Virus record (IMG/VR): IMGVR_UViG_3300021963_000660
Location: 1 to 23,472 of that record
Length of the DNA: 23,472 bases
Source of the DNA: a virus
Direction: 5' to 3' (one strand)
A program made the position numbers and the translations under genes. The notes beneath the pieces were generated by a model, which was not told the DNA's origin, did no database searches, and was given only the letters and a program-made list of their open reading frames with translations. This document shows positions 3,594 to 19,578 of this stretch, in pieces (position 1 is the first letter of the stretch; the number at the start of each line of letters is the position of its first letter).

Positions 3594-4304
3594 TTATATT
3601 TGCAAATACATATACTCTGAAAATTCCTTATTACCATTGGGTGAAAGATGCCAATCTCCATTATTTAATTCAGAATCACAAGTCCATCCTTTATTTATAG
3701 TTAATTCTCGTAAATTTATTAAAGGTGGTTCAATATATTTTTTAATATTATCACCCATTATCATATCCCACGATAATAATAATGTTGATATGTTATTTTT
3801 TTCATTAGAAATACTTTTTAAAGTATAATATGTTGATAAAATAGAATTTCTTTGTAAAAATATTTCATTTGATAGTTTTTTATGAAAAATATGATTAAAA
3901 TTTGCTAAATCATCATCAATAAAAATTCGGTGAGGTGAAATTGGTATTAATTGATGATAACCACCTTCTTTTTCTAATGTATGTTGTAATACCATACGAT
4001 GCCAATATGTTAATTGAAATATAATTAATGAATCATCATATAATTCACGAGGTAATATATCATATATTTTTTTTCGTATATCGTCATTAGGATGAAAAAA
4101 TGAAAAATTTGAATTTATACAATTTAAATAATATAAATTTTCATTATTTGAACTACCATTTATTGCATAATTGTATACATTTGCAGCTGATATATTTAAC
4201 TTATCCGCTAATAAATCTATATATGATTTGCAAGTGTTATCAATAGAATTAGTATTTAATGAATGAGAACATCCAAACACATATAAATGTTTGTATTTAT
4301 TCAC
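3594..4304 (-). CDS. SGNH/GDSL-family hydrolase-like protein (236 aa)
   Basis: The N-terminus YVFGCSHS carries the block I serine (Ser13) typical of phage SGNH-like proteins. YAINGSSNNENLYYL (46-60) fits the block II glycine region, IFQLTYWHRM (95-104) the following strand, and GDWHLSPNGNKEF (216-228) the C-terminal Asp/His block, here D-x-H rather than the more usual D-x-x-H. Such enzymes hydrolyse esters, for example acyl groups on glycans; the substrate here is unknown. The start overlaps the PhyH gene by 8 nt, so the two are translationally coupled. The DNA looks clearly more AT-rich than the PhyH gene, which may indicate separate acquisition. It ends at a terminator. Confidence 0.72.
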   Translation of the reverse strand: MNKYKHLYVFGCSHSLNTNSIDNTCKSYIDLLADKLNISAANVYNYAINGSSNNENLYYLNCINSNFSFFHPNDDIRKKIYDILPRELYDDSLIIFQLTYWHRMVLQHTLEKEGGYHQLIPISPHRIFIDDDLANFNHIFHKKLSNEIFLQRNSILSTYYTLKSISNEKNNISTLLLSWDMIMGDNIKKYIEPPLINLRELTINKGWTCDSELNNGDWHLSPNGNKEFSEYMYLQI

Positions 4305-5073
4305 CCCAATGTTTTTTTCTTAATTCGTACATATCAATTGATTCTCTTTTCATTTGGTTTCCTGCATGAAAATATGCACCTTCTTTAAGATACCCACCTA
4401 AGAAATTTCTTCTCATTCTTGTGGTATCTCCGTTTGGTTCACTACCATGAACTACATGAGAATGTAGTAATGCAACTTGTCCTTTTTTCAAATATCCTTC
4501 TATCTTACGGAAATCATGCCCTTCAGGCATTACACAACTTTTACCTCTTTCACTTCTCCAGTTATCAGTATTAGTTGCTTTTCTTTCTTCGTTATCTTCA
4601 ATTGGTAAAACCGGCAATCTATGCGACCCCTCATAGTTCCAAACTGCCCCATTAGTTGGGTCATGATTATCTAATGCCAATGCAGTATTGATAATTTCAT
4701 TATGACCACACCCTGTATAAAATGCATTTTGGTGTTGGTCTCTTCCCAATTCACCTTTTGGTTTGTAATAACCCCAAGTTTGTAATCCAACAACTCCGCC
4801 TTCCATAAGGAATTCAGCTGCTTCTAATACTTTTGGATGGGAGAATAATTTAGCAATTTTTTCGGAATCTTTATGTGGATACATAATAGGTTCAAACTCT
4901 TGCCATTTTCCTGGCTCTTTTTCATTACGTTCTACACGTAAACGGTCTAATTCTTCGTTGATTTCATCTACTTCTGCTTCGGTTAATAATTCCAAAACTG
5001 TGAAGCCTCGGTATCTCCAATCAAATGACATTTGTTGAAGTTCTTCCGTTGTAAGGTGTTTGTATTTTTGCAT
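4297..5073 (-). CDS. Phytanoyl-CoA dioxygenase (PhyH)-family protein
   Basis: This 258-aa protein has the layout of Fe(II)/2-oxoglutarate oxygenases of the PhyH family: QTWGYYKPKG, then the proximal metal site DQHQNAFY (112-119), NGAVWNYEGSH (141-151, the typical 'G.L...GSH' turn), and GQVALLHSHVVHGSEPN (198-214) with distal His209, followed by an arginine cluster (219-222) suitable for binding 2-oxoglutarate. The proximal pair reads His114-Gln-Asn116 where the family normally has HxD. This may weaken iron binding or mark a subfamily. Marine phages often carry such oxygenases; the substrate is unknown. A TATATTTATA motif lies 15 nt upstream. The gene overlaps the SGNH gene downstream. Confidence 0.82.
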   Translation of the reverse strand: MQKYKHLTTEELQQMSFDWRYRGFTVLELLTEAEVDEINEELDRLRVERNEKEPGKWQEFEPIMYPHKDSEKIAKLFSHPKVLEAAEFLMEGGVVGLQTWGYYKPKGELGRDQHQNAFYTGCGHNEIINTALALDNHDPTNGAVWNYEGSHRLPVLPIEDNEERKATNTDNWRSERGKSCVMPEGHDFRKIEGYLKKGQVALLHSHVVHGSEPNGDTTRMRRNFLGGYLKEGAYFHAGNQMKRESIDMYELRKKHWGE

Positions 5074-5531: not shown

Positions 5532-8036
5532 TTATTTTTCTTTACCTACTATTCTTAATTTGGTTTTAACATCGGTTGTCCATGTCATACCATCTAATGT
5601 ATGGTCTACTTTTACTACTTGAAATACATTAGGTTCACCGAATTTATCAGGTAATCCATCTATTTGAAGTTGGTCACCCACTTTAAATCCACTAACACCG
5701 TGTACTTTAAAATCAAAATCAGCAACACCAAATGGTGGATTTTGGGTATTATTAGCAGCTTTCTTTTGTAAAGTTTGAACCGGTGTTAGACCTTTATCAA
5801 CTAAAAAACATTGTCTTAGGGCTGCAGTATCATTCCATGCTCCAACCATTACAACATTTTCAATTGTATTATCATTACTACTATCCCAGTCATACCAAGC
5901 TTTTGTTATATCTAATTTTGCTTCTCTATTTTGTACTTTAGGATATACTGCACCTGTCTTTATAAAAAATTCAAAATTAGCTATTTTAGCTTCCGTTTCT
6001 AATTCTTCTGCGGATTTTCGTTCTGATGCTTTATTCGATGTATCGGGTGGGTCTTCTTTTGTCTCTTTTTCTGCTTGTTGTATTCCTGCTAAGTAAGTTC
6101 CTACTTTATCCTCTTTTCTAGAAAATACACTACCTAACATAGGCCTCGGATTTAATTCCGGACTATGGTCATATGTTTTTCCCTTCTCGTCTTTTAATTT
6201 ATTATTCACAACTGATGACATCATCGCTGCAGGGACTTCAACTGAAAAATCACAACTAATAAATGGTGATTTAACTCCTCTAGATTGAAATTTTGTAATA
6301 CCACTATTATTTGAAATATCACCTAAAAAATTTAAATCAACTACTGCTAATTCGATTGGGCCTTTTGGGTCACTAGATAATGGAACTTCTTGTATTTGAA
6401 ATTTCCAAATTGAATTACATGCACCGGACATACCATTTAACATTTCATAAAAAACATCTCTAATAACTAAATTGGGTTTACTAATACATTCTACAAAAAA
6501 ATTAAAATTTATATATAAATCTTTTAGATATCCCCAAAATCCAGCCTTTTCTTGTATTGGTATAAATGTGTTATCACAAGCAGATGTTACGTTTAATGGT
6601 TGTGTATTTGGAAATGCATATGGAACTATTCTAGTTTTTTTAGTGGATGGTTCAAATCTTGAATCTAAATGTGTTAGCCAGGGATACTCTTTCAATTCTG
6701 CTTCGGGATGTATATTTGCAAAGTTTTTTTCACCACTTAAATTTGCAAATTCAATAAAAGAAGTTATTTCACTTTTTGCAGAAAGTGCCTCTAAAAATTT
6801 AAAATTTGGAGTAGTTGGGTTTGGTATAAATAATTTTGTAGGGTCAGTTGAAAACATATGTGGAAACCCACTAATGTAAGTATTTTTAATATTAATTATT
6901 TTACTACGACTATCATGAGGACAATCACCACTTCCCTTACGTCTTGATAAATCAAATGGGTAGGTATTAATAATTTCACATGCTAATTCAAATCTAATAA
7001 ATTTTTCCTCTGATAAAAGGGGTAATTCTTTTGGTATTTCTAAATCTTTACCACTATCTGTTTTTAATTCGGCAGATTCAGTCAGTGCATCTTTTAAAGT
7101 TTCAGCAACAACTTTATCCATATTTACAAAATTAGCAGTATCTGACCATCTCGGGTTTTTCCATAAATTATAAGTTGCAATCGTTCTTTTTTGACCAGGA
7201 AGTTGATTAAACATTTGCATAAAAAGAGCAGCACCAATTTTATTATCACCTACTGCAGATTCAATTTCTTGTGGTTTAAATGTTTCTCCACTTTTTTTAT
7301 CATCGGTTGATGTATTATTAGCATCTCTATGGGTTTGCATATATTCTGCAATATTACCAATTGCCGTTAGTTTTACTTCCATTTCATAACTTTCATTATC
7401 ACCAAAAGAAATACCACCGCCAGTAACAACCCCTAAAAATGCATCATATGTAAAATCAGATTTTATTCTTTTTTCTTTAACGGTAGTCCAGCTGTCATAC
7501 GCAACTAAATCACAAGCGGTTACTTTATCGCCTGTTCCTACTTTTTGTGCATTTGATTTTTGAGTATTCCATCCAAATTCACATAGACAATGAAATCCCG
7601 GTTCTAAAAAAAACCCAGCTAATATATCACATTGTTCTTTTGTAAATGCACGAATTTTAATAGTTGCTAATCGACTACCACCTTCAGCTTTTTCATCCAT
7701 AGTCATAGATGTTATAATGGGTGATGGTCTAAGTGCCCTACTTGTACCAGATGGTACTGGTATTTTAGCACCATTAAAATCCCTACCTATTATACCGGGA
7801 CCTATATAATCACTCCCCATCGAACCATATACGGATGTAAAATCAGTTGCTTTGGGATTTATTGATTCTAATATACACCCACCCTCAACTCCTGATAATA
7901 ACCTTATCCAAGTAGATAATCCACTAACACCGGGATTTTCTTTTGCGTTCCACGGGTTATTATTACCTGCTCTTTTTTTTAGAGTGGTTTCTAATTCGGT
8001 GTATATATTTGATAAATTTGGAAATGAACCTGGCAT
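5532..8036 (-). CDS. Baseplate hub-like structural protein (834 aa)
   Basis: This large protein has no signal peptide. Its N-terminal half contains a beta-rich domain (PSPIITSMTMDEKAEGG...ATIKIRAFTKEQCDILAGFF) that looks like the start of a hub/late-control-D type fold. The last 60 residues (GVSGFKVGDQLQIDGLPD...VVKVDHTLDGMTWTTDVKTKL) match the pattern of the gpD/VgrG-like hub C-terminus, in which a short H-x-I/L-...-W-x-T-x-(V/L) strand closes the barrel. A charged, helical stretch (KEDKVGTYLAGIQQAEKETKEDPP) sits around residues 640-675. It lies directly after the LysM wedge gene, as in other contractile tails. It could also be another baseplate component; a hub role is the best guess. Confidence 0.7.
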   Translation of the reverse strand: MPGSFPNLSNIYTELETTLKKRAGNNNPWNAKENPGVSGLSTWIRLLSGVEGGCILESINPKATDFTSVYGSMGSDYIGPGIIGRDFNGAKIPVPSGTSRALRPSPIITSMTMDEKAEGGSRLATIKIRAFTKEQCDILAGFFLEPGFHCLCEFGWNTQKSNAQKVGTGDKVTACDLVAYDSWTTVKEKRIKSDFTYDAFLGVVTGGGISFGDNESYEMEVKLTAIGNIAEYMQTHRDANNTSTDDKKSGETFKPQEIESAVGDNKIGAALFMQMFNQLPGQKRTIATYNLWKNPRWSDTANFVNMDKVVAETLKDALTESAELKTDSGKDLEIPKELPLLSEEKFIRFELACEIINTYPFDLSRRKGSGDCPHDSRSKIINIKNTYISGFPHMFSTDPTKLFIPNPTTPNFKFLEALSAKSEITSFIEFANLSGEKNFANIHPEAELKEYPWLTHLDSRFEPSTKKTRIVPYAFPNTQPLNVTSACDNTFIPIQEKAGFWGYLKDLYINFNFFVECISKPNLVIRDVFYEMLNGMSGACNSIWKFQIQEVPLSSDPKGPIELAVVDLNFLGDISNNSGITKFQSRGVKSPFISCDFSVEVPAAMMSSVVNNKLKDEKGKTYDHSPELNPRPMLGSVFSRKEDKVGTYLAGIQQAEKETKEDPPDTSNKASERKSAEELETEAKIANFEFFIKTGAVYPKVQNREAKLDITKAWYDWDSSNDNTIENVVMVGAWNDTAALRQCFLVDKGLTPVQTLQKKAANNTQNPPFGVADFDFKVHGVSGFKVGDQLQIDGLPDKFGEPNVFQVVKVDHTLDGMTWTTDVKTKLRIVGKEK

Positions 8037-10988: not shown

Positions 10989-13547
10989 TTAAGCTCCCAT
11001 TAACCCAAATCGGTTTTCACCACTTTTTTCGTTTGTTTTCACTACTGCTGATGAAACTTTCTCTTTATCCATATAGACATCTCTATTTGATTGAACTGCC
11101 ATAATTAATTCATCTAATTTAGCAACAATAGCGGTGTTATCTTGTCCTCCCCCCATTAACCCACCTAATAATCCACCGATACCAGTTCCTAATCCCGTAG
11201 CAATTGTTTCCAATAAACTAGCAGGGTCTTTAGTTGCTAATAGGGTATCTGCTGGGTTTGTTCCAACCACTTTACCATTTTGAACTACACCATCGTTTAC
11301 ACTTTCAGTTGCCATTGCTGATGATGTAGTACCATCGGTTGATTGAGTATCATCTCCACCTAATCCTACAAAAGACCCAATTGAACTAAATACACTTGAT
11401 ACATTATCTATTACCCATTGTAATGGGGCTACTAAATATTTTTGGAAAAAATCACTAACACCTTCAATAACGCTGAATATTGCATCAAATCCTGCACTAA
11501 AAGCATCTACCATTATACCTATTGCTCCTCCGATTACTGTTCCTAATAAAACACCTATGAATTTAAAAACAGGTAATATAGGGGTAACTGCTTCCATTAT
11601 TTTATCCTTTAATTCTCCAAACTTTGCAAATAGTGGTTGTAATGCATCCGATACCATATTAAGTGGAGTAAACAACCCTTCCATAATAGCACCAGCAATT
11701 GCAAATACTGGTTTTAGTATTGCCATAAATACATTCCAAATAGCACCAACTATTCCAAATGTTATTTTAAGTACACTACCTATTGCAGTTAATGTAGGCA
11801 TTAAAAGACTACTTACTACATCTACAACATCATTTACTATCATTATTAAAAAAGCTGCTGCTGGTTGAAACACATCCATAATGGCAGTTCCTAATCCTGC
11901 AGTACTATTTGATAATTTATCCATTTGAGATTGCATCTCTTGTTGTGCTGCTAATTTCTTTGTTTGTGCATCCAAATCAGATTTAGTCATTTTACTAATA
12001 TCTTTACCTGCACTCATTAAAGACATTGCAGATGCTAATTGTTCTTTATCTAAATTACTAAATTGGTTTCTAATTCGTTGTTGATTTATTAAATCCTCCA
12101 TTTGCATACCAGTTGCCTTTGCAAGAGCTTCTTGTTCAAATTTATTTAATTTTGTTAAATCACCTAAACTTGCTACTTGATTTAATACTTCTTGCTGTGC
12201 ACCTAAAACATCACCATTTGCTGCTAAATATCTTGCTTGAGAAAGGTTTAAATTTGTTCCTAATATTGCACTTGCTTCTAATTCTGATGTAATACTATTT
12301 TCAAAATCCAAAAGATTATCAGCAACTGCACCAGCCTGTTTAATAGATGTTCCCAACTTTGCTGCTTGAACTGCTGCTTTAGCAAGTGCAGCGGGTGAAC
12401 CATTAAAATAACGATATGCATATTCAGAACTTTCTGCCATATCTTTAATAACTTGACTTGGAGCAACTCCGGCCATCTTAGACATTTGAACAGTTTGACC
12501 TATTAGGGCTTGTGATTGTTCAGCTGTTAATCCACCTATATTTTGAAATACTTTATTTAATTGTGCACCTTGTTCTACTCCAATACCAAAGTTTTTATTT
12601 AGGGCAACCATAGAACCCAATACTGATTTTGAAGGTTGCTCTAACCCACTAAATTCAGTAGTAAATGCACCTGCAGCTTTACCTACATCCTCTGCACTTA
12701 CACCTAATGTTGCAAACTCTGCAGATACGGATTGAATATTTTGTTTTAACCCGGTGGTTTGTGAATTTAATAAACCAGTTGTATCTCTAAATGATTTTGC
12801 TGCTGAATCTATTTCACTAAATCTTTTTACTCCTAATGCAAGACCTGCAACAATTAATCCAATTATTACTAATGGAGACATTAATGCTGCTGTTAATGAT
12901 GCACCTAATCCACCTGCTGCACCACTTAACGCTTGCATTGTTGTTGCACCACCTCTTAATCCACCTGCAAAATTACTTACAAATGATGTAGCGGCACCAC
13001 CTAATTTATCTTTTATTGCATTTGACCCGATACCACCAAGTTTACCTAATAACCCACCTATTACAGGTATATTACTAGCACCCGATACTAATCCATCAAA
13101 TGAACTTCCTAAACTATTTGCTAAATCAGTAGCAGCATCATTTACTTTTTCAGTTATTGCTAATCGTTGATGTTCAATATTTAAACTTTCTTCGGCAACA
13201 GCCAATGAACGTAGCATTTCTTCACCAACTGCCTTATTTGAACCAAAGTAAGATTTTCCGATTCTTTCTTTTTCTGCTTCAATCTCTACTAATTTTTTTG
13301 CAACACTTTCTGAGTTAGTTAGTTGTGATACTGATGATTTTAATTCATCATTATATGTCTTTACTTTCTTACCTAACGTTGTTCTATAATCAATCTCATC
13401 ATCAATACCATCAATAATACCTTTGTTAATAGATGCAGAAACTTTTAATGCATCATTGTAGTCATTTTGAAGACGTACCGATTCCTTTTGCTTTCTTACT
13501 AAGTCTTCTTGTGCATCTCCTACAATTTTATTTACATTTTTTGCCAT
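10989..13547 (-). CDS. Tail tape-measure protein (852 aa)
   Basis: The composition and order are those of a tape-measure protein: a charged coiled-coil N-terminus (residues 1-130), Gly/Ala-rich segments, a hydrophobic stretch near 215-240 (SPLVIIGLIVAGLALGV), Ala/Gln-rich helices through the middle, and several further hydrophobic segments at about 560-700 that could enter the host membrane. The C-terminus (AIVAKLDELIMAVQSNRDVYMDKEKV...) is of a kind common at the end of such proteins. It sets tail length and occupies the tube lumen until ejection. If about 0.15 nm per residue applies, the tail would be near 130 nm; this is a rough inference. It follows the tube and the assembly-chaperone-like genes. 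Confidence 0.85.
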   Translation of the reverse strand: MAKNVNKIVGDAQEDLVRKQKESVRLQNDYNDALKVSASINKGIIDGIDDEIDYRTTLGKKVKTYNDELKSSVSQLTNSESVAKKLVEIEAEKERIGKSYFGSNKAVGEEMLRSLAVAEESLNIEHQRLAITEKVNDAATDLANSLGSSFDGLVSGASNIPVIGGLLGKLGGIGSNAIKDKLGGAATSFVSNFAGGLRGGATTMQALSGAAGGLGASLTAALMSPLVIIGLIVAGLALGVKRFSEIDSAAKSFRDTTGLLNSQTTGLKQNIQSVSAEFATLGVSAEDVGKAAGAFTTEFSGLEQPSKSVLGSMVALNKNFGIGVEQGAQLNKVFQNIGGLTAEQSQALIGQTVQMSKMAGVAPSQVIKDMAESSEYAYRYFNGSPAALAKAAVQAAKLGTSIKQAGAVADNLLDFENSITSELEASAILGTNLNLSQARYLAANGDVLGAQQEVLNQVASLGDLTKLNKFEQEALAKATGMQMEDLINQQRIRNQFSNLDKEQLASAMSLMSAGKDISKMTKSDLDAQTKKLAAQQEMQSQMDKLSNSTAGLGTAIMDVFQPAAAFLIMIVNDVVDVVSSLLMPTLTAIGSVLKITFGIVGAIWNVFMAILKPVFAIAGAIMEGLFTPLNMVSDALQPLFAKFGELKDKIMEAVTPILPVFKFIGVLLGTVIGGAIGIMVDAFSAGFDAIFSVIEGVSDFFQKYLVAPLQWVIDNVSSVFSSIGSFVGLGGDDTQSTDGTTSSAMATESVNDGVVQNGKVVGTNPADTLLATKDPASLLETIATGLGTGIGGLLGGLMGGGQDNTAIVAKLDELIMAVQSNRDVYMDKEKVSSAVVKTNEKSGENRFGLMGA

Positions 13548-13564
13548 TATATATTAATATCAGA

Positions 13565-13816
13565 TTATTGTATATTTAAGATTGCTTTGTAATGTGCAGG
13601 GATTTTTTTACCATCCTTCTTTAATTGTTCTACTTTATCTCTAATCTTTTGCATGTCAGCATCCAATTTAGTAGCCATAGCAACAAAATCTTTATCTTTT
13701 TTTAATTTATTTACAAGAATTTTTCCAAAAATATAATCAACTACCCCTTCTCGAATAGAATGTTTTTTGGTTATAAATTCTTTTATACTTTTTCTTATTG
13801 TTTCAGTTAATTTCAT
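13565..13816 (-). CDS. Small basic helical protein before the tape measure (83-87 aa)
   Basis: A Lys-rich, probably all-helical protein (TIRKSIKEFITKKHSIREGVVDYIFGKILVNKLKKDKDF...DKVEQLKKDGKKIP). Function not recognised. I chose the ATG at 13816 (MKLTETIRK) over the one at 13828 (MGNT...), because the upstream TATATTTATA motif ends at 13838, and a transcript starting some 7-10 nt beyond it would leave almost no leader for the earlier ATG. The gene has its own apparent promoter and follows a terminator, so it starts the unit that continues into the tape measure (17 nt gap). It may be a minor tail or assembly factor; nothing more can be said. Confidence 0.7.
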   Translation of the reverse strand: MKLTETIRKSIKEFITKKHSIREGVVDYIFGKILVNKLKKDKDFVAMATKLDADMQKIRDKVEQLKKDGKKIPAHYKAILNIQ

Positions 13817-13837
13817 AGTATTTCCCATTTATACTAC

Positions 13838-13853: not shown

Positions 13854-13881
13854 AAAAAAAGTGAGGAATTTATTTCCTCAC
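13854..13881 (-). terminator. Rho-independent terminator after the frameshift extension
   Basis: A perfect 8-bp stem, GTGAGGAA (13881-13874) with TTCCTCAC (13868-13861), closes a 5-nt loop and is followed on the minus strand by seven T. The stop codon of the +1-frame extension (13872-13870) lies in the loop and its last codons form the stem. Confidence 0.9.
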
Positions 13882-14097
13882 TCTTACACCAGGGCCTTTT
13901 GATTGTTGATTAGTTTTTGTTGCTTTATTTGCGTTATCGCTTTCTCGTTTCTTTGTATCAACCAATTCTTTATAATAAAAATTTCTTAAATGAACCGGTA
14001 ATCTATACACATCTGATTGAATAAACCCATTTCCAAAATAACATAATTCAAAAATTTGTTTATGTAATATAACAGAATAATTAGTCGGTAGGCCAAA
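13870..14097 (-). CDS. Frameshift extension of the gp26-like gene (ATG-less frame, 74 aa)
   Basis: After the T7 run at 14101-14095, the +1 frame stays open for 74 codons (GLPTNYSVILHK... to ...GPGVRVRK) and stops at 13870. The frame contains no ATG; a TAA closes it at its 5' side just before the T7 run. The peptide looks like a real protein, with a compact aromatic core (FELCYFGNGF, SDVYRLPVHLRNFYYKELV) and a charged tail, and its length reaches exactly into the terminator. The simplest reading is a +1 (or -2) ribosomal frameshift at AAC-TTT-TTT-TGG, giving a 321-aa fusion with the upstream gene. Tail assembly chaperones before tape-measure genes are well known for such frameshifts. A sequencing error in the homopolymer would look the same. 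Confidence 0.7.
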   Translation of the reverse strand, partial: FGLPTNYSVILHKQIFELCYFGNGFIQSDVYRLPVHLRNFYYKELVDTKKRESDNANKATKTNQQSKGPGVRVRK

Positions 14098-14836
14098 AAA
14101 AGTTTACGCCCATTGGTATAGAGCGTACCTCCGTTTCTCCCGTCTCTGGGTCAGTATAATCAAACTCCATTTTAACATCCGGTTGGATTACTTTTAAATG
14201 TTCTCTAAAAGCTTTAGTATCTTTTGATAAAAATTTATTATTAATAAAATCAGTAATTGATTTAGTATCTTCGTTTCCATCAACGGAAACTATCATATAA
14301 CGATAACGAGTAGTTAATTCTCCGCCCATTGAATCTTTACTTAATCGTTTCATTGCATTAACATCCGCATCAATTCTTTTTTCATCACCATGAGTTAATA
14401 ATTTAAAAACTAATACATTACCAGTGGATGTTTTAAATGTATAACGATTATCGCTAGTTAATTTACTAAAATCAATATCTTTTGTTTGAACTTTACCCAA
14501 ATCTACGTTAATAGTTTCGTTTTCACCGGTTGAGGTTTGTATTTGAATTTTATATTCAGGACCATATCCTAAAATACGAGTTGCTAGCATAATAGCGTTT
14601 TTATCACCCAAAAGAATATCATCTGGATTTACTTTCTTATCTACTATAATTGCTTCGAATAATTTATCTAATACTACACCTTTTTTAATCAAACTTTGAG
14701 AGGTAAGAATTTCCTCCTCTCTTGCCGTCATGTATTTTAATTCGATGTTACCACTTGATAATGGATTTGTTTCTGGATAACACTTACCTTGAGATGGTAA
14801 TGAAATTATCTCCGTTGAGAATTCGTATTGTGACAT
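14081..14836 (-). CDS. gp26-like baseplate/tail assembly protein (251 aa, zero-frame product)
   Basis: The sequence MSQYEFSTEIISLPSQGKCYPETNPLSSGNIELKYMTAREEEILTSQ..KKGVVLDKLFEAI..DKKVNPDDILLGDKNAIMLATRILGYG follows the pattern of T4-like baseplate hub/assembly proteins annotated as gp26 in marine phages; that is recalled knowledge. The body continues FKLLTHGDEKRID... and SMGGELTTRYRYMIVSVDG. It ends VNFFWPTD, with the final codons overlapping a T7 run that appears to be a frameshift site. It probably acts as an assembly factor or chaperone for tail/baseplate formation. It follows the tube gene after a terminator and has a TATATTTATA motif 26 nt upstream. Confidence 0.8.
   Translation of the reverse strand: MSQYEFSTEIISLPSQGKCYPETNPLSSGNIELKYMTAREEEILTSQSLIKKGVVLDKLFEAIIVDKKVNPDDILLGDKNAIMLATRILGYGPEYKIQIQTSTGENETINVDLGKVQTKDIDFSKLTSDNRYTFKTSTGNVLVFKLLTHGDEKRIDADVNAMKRLSKDSMGGELTTRYRYMIVSVDGNEDTKSITDFINNKFLSKDTKAFREHLKVIQPDVKMEFDYTDPETGETEVRSIPMGVNFFWPTD
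14095..14101 (-). other. T7 candidate slippery site
   Basis: In zero frame the codons are AAC TTT TTT TGG. A tRNA-Phe on the second TTT can move forward one base and still pair perfectly with TTT, after which GGC is read and the long +1 frame opens. The waiting Trp codon (TGG) could favour the shift. Confidence 0.55.
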
Positions 14837-14941: not shown

Positions 14942-15430
14942 TTAGAATTCAAGTACTGCGTAATCGTAAGATAACGTTAATGTGATTTCTGCAGGGTCAT
15001 TTGATGTCCAATCTAACTCACCAAATTGTGCGTTTAAGATAAATGCACCTTTGATTTTCCATTGTTCAATTTTATCACCCACTGGTCCTAACATATAGAT
15101 ATCAATATCTTTTTTGTAGAAATCTGCATATCCATCACGTCCTGTTAGGGATTCGTGTGAAGTTCTAACCCACTCCATTACTGCTTGTGCACCAGATGGT
15201 ACAATTGGGTCATACAATGTGATTTCTAAATCTTGCCACTCACCTTTACCTTTCAACTTTCTTTTTAAGTTGATGTGTTCTAATGTTACAGCTTCAAACT
15301 GAATGTTTGGTCTGTTAGCGGTTTTGATAAGATATGAAGGGATACCACCGATTTCCATGATGAAACGATTTTTCATCTTTGGTTCAAAGTTGGTATAGAA
15401 CATTTCGTTAAACTCTAATATTTCTGCCAT
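14942..15430 (-). CDS. gp19: Tail tube protein, T4 gp19-like (162 aa)
   Basis: Length and sequence fit the T4 gp19 tube family: NRFIMEIGGIPSYLIKTANRPNIQFEAVTLEHINLKRKLKGKGEWQDLEITLYDPI, then AVMEWVRTSHESLTGRDGYADFYKKDIDIYMLGP and a C-terminal beta strand region (EITLTLSYDYAVLEF). It forms the inner tube of the contractile tail. It follows the sheath gene, the standard order in T4-like phages. It has a clear Shine-Dalgarno site (AGGAG, 9 nt before ATG), unusual in this window, and a TATATTTATT motif upstream. A strong terminator follows, giving a single- or two-gene transcript suitable for high expression. Confidence 0.95.
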   Translation of the reverse strand: MAEILEFNEMFYTNFEPKMKNRFIMEIGGIPSYLIKTANRPNIQFEAVTLEHINLKRKLKGKGEWQDLEITLYDPIVPSGAQAVMEWVRTSHESLTGRDGYADFYKKDIDIYMLGPVGDKIEQWKIKGAFILNAQFGELDWTSNDPAEITLTLSYDYAVLEF

Positions 15431-15484: not shown

Positions 15485-17875
15485 TTATGCTGAGAACGAT
15501 GCTCCAGTCGGTAAGATATTGAAATCTAATACGATGAATTCAGCGGTTTTTGTTGGTTGTAAGAAAATCTGTCCAGCCAATATATTTCTATCAATTACAT
15601 CAGGAGTGTTATTAGTCTCATCCATTACTACTCTAAATGCATATAAACCTTGTCTTTGTTGAATTGCTTCTAAATAAGGATTAACTGTATTTAAGAATCT
15701 TGAACGAGTGGTAGAAGTATTTTGTTCGAATACTAAGTATCTTGATGTAGAAGCAATATACTTCTTAACTTTGATAAGTAATCTTCTAACATTGATTCTA
15801 TCTAACGCTGATGATTTTTCTTGTAATGTTTTCTGTCCAAATGCCACGATACCCTCGCCAGGGAAAGATGCGATAGGATTTATTTTTCCTTCGTATAATG
15901 TATCTCTCTCTGCGTGTGTTAATCTATTCAATACTGAAACTGCTCCTACGATTCCACCACGATTTAAACCAGCTGGTGCGAACCATTCTGCTGCAACCGC
16001 GTCATTTGCTGCGTAAATACCTGGCATCAATACTGATGGTGGTACTGCAGTTAATTTGTTTGTGTTTCTATCGATTGTCTTAACCCACGGGTAGTAAGTA
16101 CCTACATAGTTAGAATCTACTGCTGCACCTTGTGCAACTGCTTCATCAATTGTATCATTACCACTATCACATCCAACTACATCACCAATGAAGAATACAT
16201 CTTCTCTATTTTCACACATTTCAGTTATGTAGTCAAACACATATGAGTGATGTCTACGAACTATACCAGGTGCTGCGATTATGTTGATATCGAAATCATC
16301 AGGGTTAGATACCGCGTTGATTGCTTTTACATATGCAACTGAACCGCTTGCAATTGATGTTGCTAAGTTAAATCCTTGTGAATTACCAGATGATAAATCA
16401 GAACCTTTGCTTGCAACTCTTGTTGGAGTTACACCATCAAACCCACCTTGAAATGCTAATGTGAATTGTCTTTTAGCAATTGTTTCGGCTGAATCATCAG
16501 TTGATAATGAATAAGCAAAATTATATGTTGAAACTGACCCACTTACAATAGCAGTAATATCTGCATCAAATGTAAAATCAGTATTTCTACCAGTACTAAA
16601 TTCAGTTCCCGGTAATGGTTTTAAATATTGTGTATTATTTATTTTTACTGCAGTAGTTTCTAAATCAATACCAGAGTATCTATATGCAGATGATGCTGTA
16701 TTATTAGCAGAACCGGTTGAATAAATAACTGCAGGAACGATTGTTTCTATCGTTGCATCAATTGGATTGATGTATGCACCATGTCCAAAAGGTGCTGCTA
16801 TGATAGGGAATGAACCCTCAGATGATACTTCTACTCTAACTAATTTAGAACGATTTGCGTAATCACCATTTTCACTTTGTTTGCCATTTGCATCAATTGT
16901 TAAATTTCTATCACCAATTACTTTAGCAATATAGTTTGGAGATGCAGGGTCTAAGTTAACGTTATTATATGTTTCTTTTACTGATTTTTTTCTATCTGTA
17001 TCACTAAATCCACGAACTACTACTGAGAATGTTGCGTAATCAGTTGCACCAGATACTCCTGCTGCTTTAACGTTAAAAATACTTACTTTATATTCAGTAT
17101 TGTATGGATTACCATCACCTAACGTATGGAAACGGAATAGGTCACTTCTTTGTCCACTAATCAATTGGGATTTAACCATTGGAGTAGATGCGTAAGTAGT
17201 GTCATCAGTAAATGCTTGAGTTGGTAATTGAACTAATGAAATAGAACCAGAACCTGCAGATAAGTATGCACTTAAATCGGTAGCTGTTTTTTCAAAGTAT
17301 GTATACACATATGCTTTTTTAGTTCCAAATGGAGATTCTCCAAATACATCACCAATATCATTTCCTTGTGCAGGGTCAATTGATGCTGAACCATTGTATG
17401 CTATGTTACTTCCACTAATTGTAAAATAAGTATCAGTTGTTGTTCCGTTTGCAAAGGTTATTGAACTAGTTGCAAATCCGGTTGATTCACTACCACTTAC
17501 TGTAGCGTGTAATGTACCGATGATATGTTCACTACCACTTGCATATGTTCCTGAAGCAGAACCAGATACTAATGTTACTTTAATACCAATTGGTGCTACG
17601 TGTGAATAACCACCTAAGTGACCAACACGAACAATTGTTGCTGTTCCTGCTTCTCTTAAATAGTTCTGAACTGCGTACCCTGTATAGTATTCCCCATCAG
17701 GTGTACCGAATATTTCTTCAAATTCTGATTGTGTATTGACGATAGTTGGTAAGAACGCTGGTCCTTTACTAAAAGGTCCTACTATTGCTGCCCCTATTTC
17801 TCCTATACCCTGTGATAAAAATGATAAATCATTCTCTCTTGTGAATACACCAGGTGATACAATTTTTTCTGCCAT
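15485..17875 (-). CDS. gp18: Contractile tail sheath protein, T4 gp18-like (796 aa)
   Basis: The N-terminus MAEKIVSPGVFTRENDLSFLSQGIGEIGAAIVGPFSKGPAFLPTIV and the C-terminal third (TLYEGKINPIASFPGEGIVAFGQKTL..., INVRRLLIKVKKYIASTSRYLVFEQN, PYLEAIQQRQGLYAFRVVMDETNN, ...NILAGQIFLQPTKTAEFIVLDFNILPTGASF) are characteristic of the sheath family. At 796 aa it is longer than T4 gp18 (659 aa). The extra length appears to be Ser/Gly/Thr-rich segments in the first half (about 105-190), probably surface insertions. I chose the ATG at 17875 because AGGAG stands 10 nt before it; the ATG 36 nt upstream lacks such a site. Sheath subunits surround the tube and contract to drive it through the envelope. Confidence 0.96.
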   Translation of the reverse strand: MAEKIVSPGVFTRENDLSFLSQGIGEIGAAIVGPFSKGPAFLPTIVNTQSEFEEIFGTPDGEYYTGYAVQNYLREAGTATIVRVGHLGGYSHVAPIGIKVTLVSGSASGTYASGSEHIIGTLHATVSGSESTGFATSSITFANGTTTDTYFTISGSNIAYNGSASIDPAQGNDIGDVFGESPFGTKKAYVYTYFEKTATDLSAYLSAGSGSISLVQLPTQAFTDDTTYASTPMVKSQLISGQRSDLFRFHTLGDGNPYNTEYKVSIFNVKAAGVSGATDYATFSVVVRGFSDTDRKKSVKETYNNVNLDPASPNYIAKVIGDRNLTIDANGKQSENGDYANRSKLVRVEVSSEGSFPIIAAPFGHGAYINPIDATIETIVPAVIYSTGSANNTASSAYRYSGIDLETTAVKINNTQYLKPLPGTEFSTGRNTDFTFDADITAIVSGSVSTYNFAYSLSTDDSAETIAKRQFTLAFQGGFDGVTPTRVASKGSDLSSGNSQGFNLATSIASGSVAYVKAINAVSNPDDFDINIIAAPGIVRRHHSYVFDYITEMCENREDVFFIGDVVGCDSGNDTIDEAVAQGAAVDSNYVGTYYPWVKTIDRNTNKLTAVPPSVLMPGIYAANDAVAAEWFAPAGLNRGGIVGAVSVLNRLTHAERDTLYEGKINPIASFPGEGIVAFGQKTLQEKSSALDRINVRRLLIKVKKYIASTSRYLVFEQNTSTTRSRFLNTVNPYLEAIQQRQGLYAFRVVMDETNNTPDVIDRNILAGQIFLQPTKTAEFIVLDFNILPTGASFSA

Positions 17876-17912
17876 TTTATTTACTCCTATTAAGTTTGTG
17901 TAATGATACACA

Positions 17913-18306: not shown

Positions 18307-19578
18307 TTATCTAACAAATGAAACTGCACTACTCCAAGTCCCTTTAAGACCTTGGTCAATCGCTCTAACTCTAACATACCAAGTCCCTGCCGTTAATAGA
18401 GTATTAACTTCGATAGTGTTGGTGCTCCATTCCGTATTATCTACTGTGTTGGAAACAAATGTATTTCCTGTTGATATTTGTACATCATATGCAGTAATAC
18501 CACCCGTTCCTACTGATGCAGGTGCCGTCCAACTTACACTTGGAGATGAATATGCTATTGAAGTAGGTACACCGGGTGCTGCTAAATCTGTAAATGAATT
18601 ACCACCTTTATTATGGGTAATATATCCATTTACTAAATAAGTATCTTCTGCTTCCACATCTAATGATACAATTTCAGATGTTTCTTCATCAATTGTTATC
18701 GATATTATATCTACTTCTTGTGTATCACCATTTACAAATTTAATTAATTTATCACCAATAGTTAAATTAAACATTTGTTTGAATCTATATAAATTATCAG
18801 TAGAATCTTTAACTAATAGAGGATGTTCTGATGTAGCTGTAATTTCACCATTATTAATATTATAATATTTACCAGTAAATGAATATATTACATTCACAAC
18901 TGTTACTTCTTTTTCAATTTTATTTAATTCAGATGTAGACCAATCATAAAATGTACCATCTGAATCAATTGATAATCCATTTAAAGAAAATCCTTTTAAT
19001 TTATCACCTTCTTCAATTTGACCAACTTCTTTAATAGACCCATCAGCCATTGTTACGGGTGAATCAGATGTTAAACATAATGCAACTGAGTTACCGTCAT
19101 ACGAATCTACGGAATAAACCGTCTTATCTTTAGATGTGTTATATCCAGTTGCGTGTGTATTATATCCATCTGCAAATACTGCACGAAGCGTATGAGTTTG
19201 AATTGTTTGTAGTACCGTTTGTGCCCCTGGGGATTGTGGATTCATTGATGATACGTTAAACGTACAAGTTGTACCACTATTTGTTCCTAATGTTATATAT
19301 GAACCTGCAGCTACACTCCATGTAAAGTTTGCCCCTCTACCACTAATTCTGGCAAAATTTGTACCGGCTGCATCAAAACCTAACGTATATGTTTCTGTTG
19401 TAGATTCAACTGCGTAGGTATAACCAGTTACCGAACCAACTGCATCAATTGCGAATGATGACATTGCAATAGGCCCAATTGAATCTCCCTTTGCTGCTGA
19501 GATTGATTTTGTACCTTGACCTGTTGCTGCAGCTAAATTATTTAAACTTTTGGTTTGTCCTGATGTTAATGTTGCCAT
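18307..19578 (-). CDS. Virion protein with embedded Hint domain and FN3-like C-terminus (423 aa)
   Basis: Three parts are visible. Residues 1-167 form a Gly/Ser/Thr-rich, beta-type domain with no family recognised. Residues 168-323 form a Hint (hedgehog/intein) module: it opens with CLTSDSPVTMADGSIKEVGQIEEGDKL, has the TxxH motif as T249-S-E-H252, and closes VNGYITHN. Residues 333-422 look like a fibronectin type III domain (PGVPTSIAYSSPSVSWTAP..., TAGTWYVRVRAID). The residue after HN is Lys324, not Cys, Ser or Thr. The location next to fibre and sheath genes suggests a virion surface protein. The start has AGGA and a TATATTTATA-like motif (TATATTTATA with one change) nearby. Whether the protein splices, cleaves or does neither is unknown. 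Confidence 0.8.
   Translation of the reverse strand: MATLTSGQTKSLNNLAAATGQGTKSISAAKGDSIGPIAMSSFAIDAVGSVTGYTYAVESTTETYTLGFDAAGTNFARISGRGANFTWSVAAGSYITLGTNSGTTCTFNVSSMNPQSPGAQTVLQTIQTHTLRAVFADGYNTHATGYNTSKDKTVYSVDSYDGNSVALCLTSDSPVTMADGSIKEVGQIEEGDKLKGFSLNGLSIDSDGTFYDWSTSELNKIEKEVTVVNVIYSFTGKYYNINNGEITATSEHPLLVKDSTDNLYRFKQMFNLTIGDKLIKFVNGDTQEVDIISITIDEETSEIVSLDVEAEDTYLVNGYITHNKGGNSFTDLAAPGVPTSIAYSSPSVSWTAPASVGTGGITAYDVQISTGNTFVSNTVDNTEWSTNTIEVNTLLTAGTWYVRVRAIDQGLKGTWSSAVSFVR
18610..19077 (-). other. Hint (intein-like) domain coding segment
   Basis: Encodes residues 168-323 (156 aa), the size of a mini-intein with no homing endonuclease. Present are the N-terminal Cys168, the TxxH motif (249-252), and the C-terminal His322-Asn323. 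The missing +1 nucleophile (Lys324) resembles bacterial intein-like domains, which may cleave instead of splicing. Confidence 0.82.

Follow-up and report, generated by a model that had tools for sequence, protein, structure and literature searches.

In this study we analyzed a stretch of viral DNA of 23,472 nucleotides (nt) from IMG/VR record IMGVR_UViG_3300021963_000660 (hereafter the window), in which a gene of the T4 gp26/gp51 family carries a second, out-of-frame coding region at its 3' end. Coordinates are window positions 1-23,472, and all the features described lie on the minus strand. Judged from the sequence, a programmed +1 frameshift in this gene, making a short and a long form of a tail assembly chaperone (TAC-N and TAC-NC), is almost certainly real and conserved. 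In that case distant relatives of T4 would produce their chaperone through a forward shift, where a backward shift is commoner and T4 itself employs two genes.

The zero-frame gene (TAC-N, 14081-14836, 251 amino acids) ends GTA AAC TTT TTT TGG CCT ACC GAC TAA, its protein ending VNFFWPTD*, and a run of seven T (14101-14095) lies close to this 3' end. The +1 frame reads GGC CTA CCG from 14094 and continues for 74 codons without an ATG until it stops at a TAA (13872-13870), so that the extension, stop included, occupies 13870-14094. A terminator-like hairpin followed by a T run was read from the sequence at 13854-13881 (stem 13881-13874 / 13868-13861, T run 13860-13854), and the +1 stop stands in its loop. 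The original prediction had described all of these elements, and each is present in the sequence; an open frame of 74 codons arose by chance in 0.02% of base shuffles. Directly upstream of the site, a TAA in the +1 frame (14104-14106) sets the 5' limit of the frame change, and the zero-frame stop TAA (14081-14083), whose position is kept across relatives, sets the 3' limit. Because these two stops bound it, the change is confined to about 20 nt, the first part of which is filled by the T run.

By searching with the window protein and its relatives from Mel-JY01 and immuto, we collected 201 IMG/VR loci among the matches listed; since these are the best matches of the searches, near relatives are over-represented. 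In five of the IMG/VR loci a contig end truncates the sequence, and the untruncated set of 203 consists of 196 IMG/VR loci, the window and six phage records: Flavobacterium phage immuto, Microcystis phage Mel-JY01, Bacillus phage SP-15, Listeria phage LIS04, GXN1 and LR756508. It holds 172 distinct N-domain sequences, which form 62 clusters at 80% amino acid identity. The extension profile placed the extension in the +1 frame at every one of the 203 untruncated loci among the matches listed, and a -1 shift at an X_XXY_YYZ heptamer fits none of them; nowhere in the group does the extension continue the reading frame of the gene. The T run numbers seven in all close relatives. The proposal of a programmed +1 frameshift at this place, which counted on a conserved +1 frame, is therefore borne out at the level of sequence by the 203 loci and the conserved site. 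The annotations of Mel-JY01, immuto and SP-15 show nothing in the extension frame but small, separate hypothetical ORFs (open reading frames), whose coordinates put them in frame with the extension.

The conserved element is a near-invariant 12-mer, TTT-YTT-TGG-CCT, which in the window reads TTT TTT TGG CCT (14090-14101, zero-frame codons 246-249). Over the 62 clusters the site takes the form TTTTTTTGG in 44, TTTCTTTGG in eight, TTTTTTTAC in three and CTTTTTTGG in two, with TTTCTATTC, TTTCTTTAC, TTTTTTAGT, TTCTTTCGT and TTTTTTCAC found once each. Conservation is limited to the 12-mer, and the wobble positions of its first two codons carry 1.88 bits, compared with about 0.1 bit just upstream. 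Of the 62 clusters, 59 begin the site with TTT, two with CTT and one with TTC; in this last cluster the second codon is the slip codon. Elsewhere in the gene Phe is encoded by TTT (74%) and TTC (26%), but TTC does not serve as the slip codon, and the product of the locus-specific TTT probabilities for the first codon is 4e-10. No in-frame YTTYTTT was found elsewhere in the N domains, among 14,797 codons of 61 clusters. The zero-frame stop usually lies 18 or 24 nt past the start of the site, and the constancy of the CCT codon probably reflects the Leu that its letters also encode in the +1 frame. Thus, while the T run had been located correctly as the place of the signal, the signal itself is the 12-mer and not the T run per se.

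Every site in the 62 clusters offers UUU_U, UUU_C or CUU_U for +1 re-pairing in the peptidyl (P) site; only the first codon can be the slip codon in the CTA variants, and only the second in TTC TTT CGT. The same tetranucleotides serve known +1 shifts: CUU_U and, in a minority, UUU_U at the RF2 sites (PMC5009743), and UUU_C in influenza PA-X, where the +1 shift was demonstrated by mass spectrometry (PMC3498833). The window group differs from both in usually having TGG after the slip site and in lacking a conserved upstream element.

The extension appears to be a real domain, on the evidence of its sequence and of modeling. Within the window's clade it is under purifying selection, with a ratio of nonsynonymous to synonymous rates (dN/dS) of about 0.24 and with differences distributed 3840/2781/6180 over +1 codon positions 1/2/3. 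Its consensus is GLxxxYRxxLHxQIFxLxYHGxGGFxxxxVYxMPIWLRxFY, and the conserved GL-x-x-x-Y residues begin before or at the zero-frame stop. The N domain and the extension were modeled separately with AlphaFold2, which predicted three helices for the extension with a mean confidence (pLDDT) of 86.5. Neither a tblastn search of phages with the 74 residues alone (no significant match), nor a sequence search of the PDB (no match), nor a fold search of BFVD with the model (no match at E < 1) identified a relative, and comparison with Pfam and PHROGs gave weak matches only. Several of the weak BFVD matches fall in phages that also match the N domain (ctgXL3, LE4, pT24). The extension profile matches the -1 extension region of HTVC008M at E 0.008. 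In pT24 it matches, at E 0.006, an ORF that overlaps the end of a 306-amino-acid gene in the +1 frame. This match in Tenacibaculum phage pT24 corresponds to BPT24_131/132 (L237, 1578-2694), and the 306-amino-acid gene ends AAC TTC TTA TTA TAA, which contains no UUU_Y or CUU_U site.

We consider it very likely that one gene yields TAC-N and a rarer TAC-NC by programmed +1 ribosomal frameshifting, through slippage of the P-site tRNA on UUU_Y or CUU_U. According to this mechanism, most ribosomes would terminate at the TAA at 14083-14081 and release the 251-amino-acid TAC-N. A minority, with peptidyl-tRNA-Phe (in some relatives Leu) on UUU or CUU in the P site, would slip one base forward on UUU_U, UUU_C or CUU_U and then read GGC CUA, producing a TAC-NC of 321 amino acids whose C-terminal domain is predicted to be helical. 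If lambda G/GT is a guide, the N part may form a coat on the tape measure protein, and tail tube subunits may be recruited by the C domain, which would be the rare one.

The phrog_150 profile (baseplate hub, T4 gp26/gp51) matches the zero-frame protein of the window over columns 19-233 of 282 (E 2.4e-7), and after alignment of the N domain with 49 relatives it matches 47 of the 50 aligned group members. With PF12322 (T4 gp26/gp51), the window protein aligns along almost the whole profile and scores 23.4 bits, slightly short of the cut-off (24.5), and its relative from SP-15 scores 98.9 bits. For the N-domain model (pLDDT 89), the two PDB entries that match best are 3klu, Bacillus subtilis YqbN (Z 5.1), a prophage protein of the TAC type, and 2ob9, the HK97 TAC (Z 4.9); only six of 991 PDB chains compared reach Z 2. 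The gene order runs from the tail sheath gene (15485-17911; phrog_23, E 2e-72) through the gp19-like tail tube gene (14942-15430; PF06841, E 3.6e-11; phrog_4542, E 4e-31), just upstream, to the gp26-like gene with its extension and then to an ORF of 852 amino acids (10989-13547), which is probably the tape measure gene by its position, as annotated in immuto and SP-15. Because of this place between the tube and presumed tape measure genes, the phrog_150 match and the modest resemblance of its model to the YqbN and HK97 folds, the gp26-like gene is probably a tail assembly chaperone. The gp26-like assignment made earlier is thus upheld by the profile, and chaperone is a better name for it than hub gene.

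Several observations weigh against this interpretation. The fold matches to YqbN and the HK97 TAC are modest, with Z of about 5, and the 852-amino-acid ORF, without a family match in Pfam or PHROGs, is assigned as the tape measure gene only by position. The fused protein aligned weakly with T4 gp51 in a profile-profile comparison, in which the link between the extension and the gp51 C terminus is likewise weak. At the site itself, no Shine-Dalgarno-like stimulator was found upstream across relatives and no conserved RNA structure downstream (mean z -0.67, window z +0.14), and the TGG that follows the slip codons is neither a stop nor, here, a codon demonstrated to be slow.

Among the other explanations, a -2 ribosomal frameshift like that known in the TAC gene of phage Mu (PMC5009743) would give the same two products, with the junction NFFFGLP instead of NFFGLP. 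TTTTTTT permits perfect Phe re-pairing in both directions, and the near-invariant first TTT suits a -2 shift as well. However, TTT CTA TGG and TTT CTA TTC (UUU_C) pair well at +1 but poorly at -2, and TTC TTT CGT (UUU_C) and TTT CTT TGG (CUU_U or UUU_C) likewise favor +1, which makes a -2 shift improbable and agrees with the preference for +1 voiced in the original prediction. Slippage of RNA polymerase on the T run, giving mixed mRNAs without any ribosomal shift, is less probable still. The window and most relatives do have seven successive T, but the clusters with TTTCTTTGG, TTTCTATTC and TTCTTTCGT have at most three and show the same arrangement, and another gene of the window holds an in-frame run of eight T. 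That run, TTT TTT TTA, lies at about 7606-7613 in a gene of 834 amino acids (ORF 5532-8036). Both explanations are disfavored because the variant sites lack the T run.

The extension might also be a separate small protein with its own start codon or made by re-initiation after the zero-frame stop, as the small ORFs annotated in the extension frame of Mel-JY01, immuto and SP-15 would suggest. We regard this as very unlikely, since 24 of the 62 clusters have no ATG, GTG or TTG upstream in the open +1 frame, and in the window no more than 7 nt of this open frame precede the last T, with no start among them. Moreover, the conserved GL-x-x-x-Y starts before or at the zero-frame stop, and a separate protein would leave the invariant 12-mer unexplained. 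Finally, homopolymers are prone to sequencing error, but an error in one continuous gene is ruled out because independent metagenome contigs and isolate genomes agree, some of them without the homopolymer, and relatives with a broken T run (TTTCTTTGG, TTTCTATGG, TTCTTTCGT) keep the same arrangement of gene and extension.

With the +1 shift as the preferred explanation, we compared the group with the rest of the gp26/gp51 family. In the columns of phrog_150, T4 gp26 ends at 235 and the window zero frame at practically the same place, 233, while T4 gp51 carries an extra C-terminal part that reaches 280; genes 26 and 51 of T4 are separate and divergent on opposite strands, unlike the single frameshifted gene of the window. 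Cyanophage P-SSM2 has columns 227-278 in the -1 frame (E 1.4e-10), and a -1 extension, after T TTT TTC or T TTT TTT, also occurs in pelagiphage HTVC008M, in Delftia phage PhiW-14, in the jumbo phages Atu_ph07 and PA5oct and in the more distant LR756511 (two loci). In Atu_ph07 and PA5oct, which lie beyond the reach of the extension profile, it was judged by eye. These phages resemble the window in having an out-of-frame C-terminal extension right after a T-rich site and differ in its frame. In PaBG no clear extension was found, and phiR1-37 gave no match. As the +1 group, the -1 members and T4 genes 26 and 51 all belong to the phrog_150 family, comparison of the sequences points to one family with three routes to the long form: a +1 shift, a -1 shift and two genes. 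This result qualifies the special interest that had been claimed for frameshifting in a gp26 gene of the T4 type; such a frameshift is not unique, since other members shift by -1, and T4 relies on another gene, the longer 51. A further observation concerns Rhodothermus phage RM378, where the end of the gp26-like gene carries TTT TTT TGG; about 70 codons are open there in the +1 frame, and their sequence is not recognizably like the window extension.

Frameshifting in TAC genes is itself already known. That of long-tailed phages, with lambda G/GT as the model, was reported by Xu, Hendrix and Duda in 2004, as described in PMC5009743. As in lambda, the window would have two products of one gene between the tail tube and presumed tape measure genes, with a second domain reached by a frameshift near the 3' end, and its modeled N domain modestly resembles the TAC fold; unlike lambda, where the shift is -1, the window group would shift +1 on UUU_Y or CUU_U, and its gene belongs to a different sequence family (PF12322) with a larger N domain. 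A +1 shift has been inferred in the TAC gene of halovirus HSTV-2, and a -2 shift is known in that of phage Mu (PMC5009743); both reach the same relative frame as the window, and their sites and hosts differ, judged by their descriptions. T4 has long been cited as an exception to the conserved tail-gene frameshift (PMC5009743). A passage in PMC10885494 credits Vladimirov et al. 2022 with the possibility of a short gene plus a longer fused gene in T4-like phages, and one in PMC12846349 credits the same work with poly-T -1 signals in T4-like TAC genes. By the literature compared, outside which Vladimirov, Gautam and Davidson 2022 itself stands, the +1 version in the gp26/gp51 family appears to be new, but this is not certain.

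These findings would place a frameshift, but a forward one, in the same gene family of distant T4 relatives that form a large group, most of them uncultured, and would add a strongly conserved site to the short list of bacterial +1 sites. The series of +1, -1 and two genes offers natural material for asking how the direction of a shift evolves. The comparison also identifies a hidden domain, which annotators had missed or split into small "hypothetical" ORFs, in phages that are available in culture for tests. We give roughly even chances to a broader proposal, in which UUU-YUU-UGG-CCU would be a self-sufficient bacterial +1 signal, independent of any stop codon, Shine-Dalgarno element or RNA structure and functional across several host phyla, and the route to the long form would have switched within one chaperone family between +1, -1 and gene duplication, with the two genes of T4 replacing an ancestral frameshift.

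Other features of the window were noted in passing. An ORF of 87 amino acids (13565-13828) without a significant family match separates the extension from the presumed tape measure gene, and no counterpart to it stands among the annotated ORFs of immuto. An intein-like (Hint) domain, with a weak match to PF14890 (E 0.0035), interrupts a fibronectin-III-type protein of 423 amino acids (18307-19578); the domain ends THNKGG, an HN without the usual Cys, Ser or Thr after it. Additionally, a phytanoyl-CoA dioxygenase-like protein (4297-5073; PF05721, E 3e-14) is encoded close to the phage structural genes.
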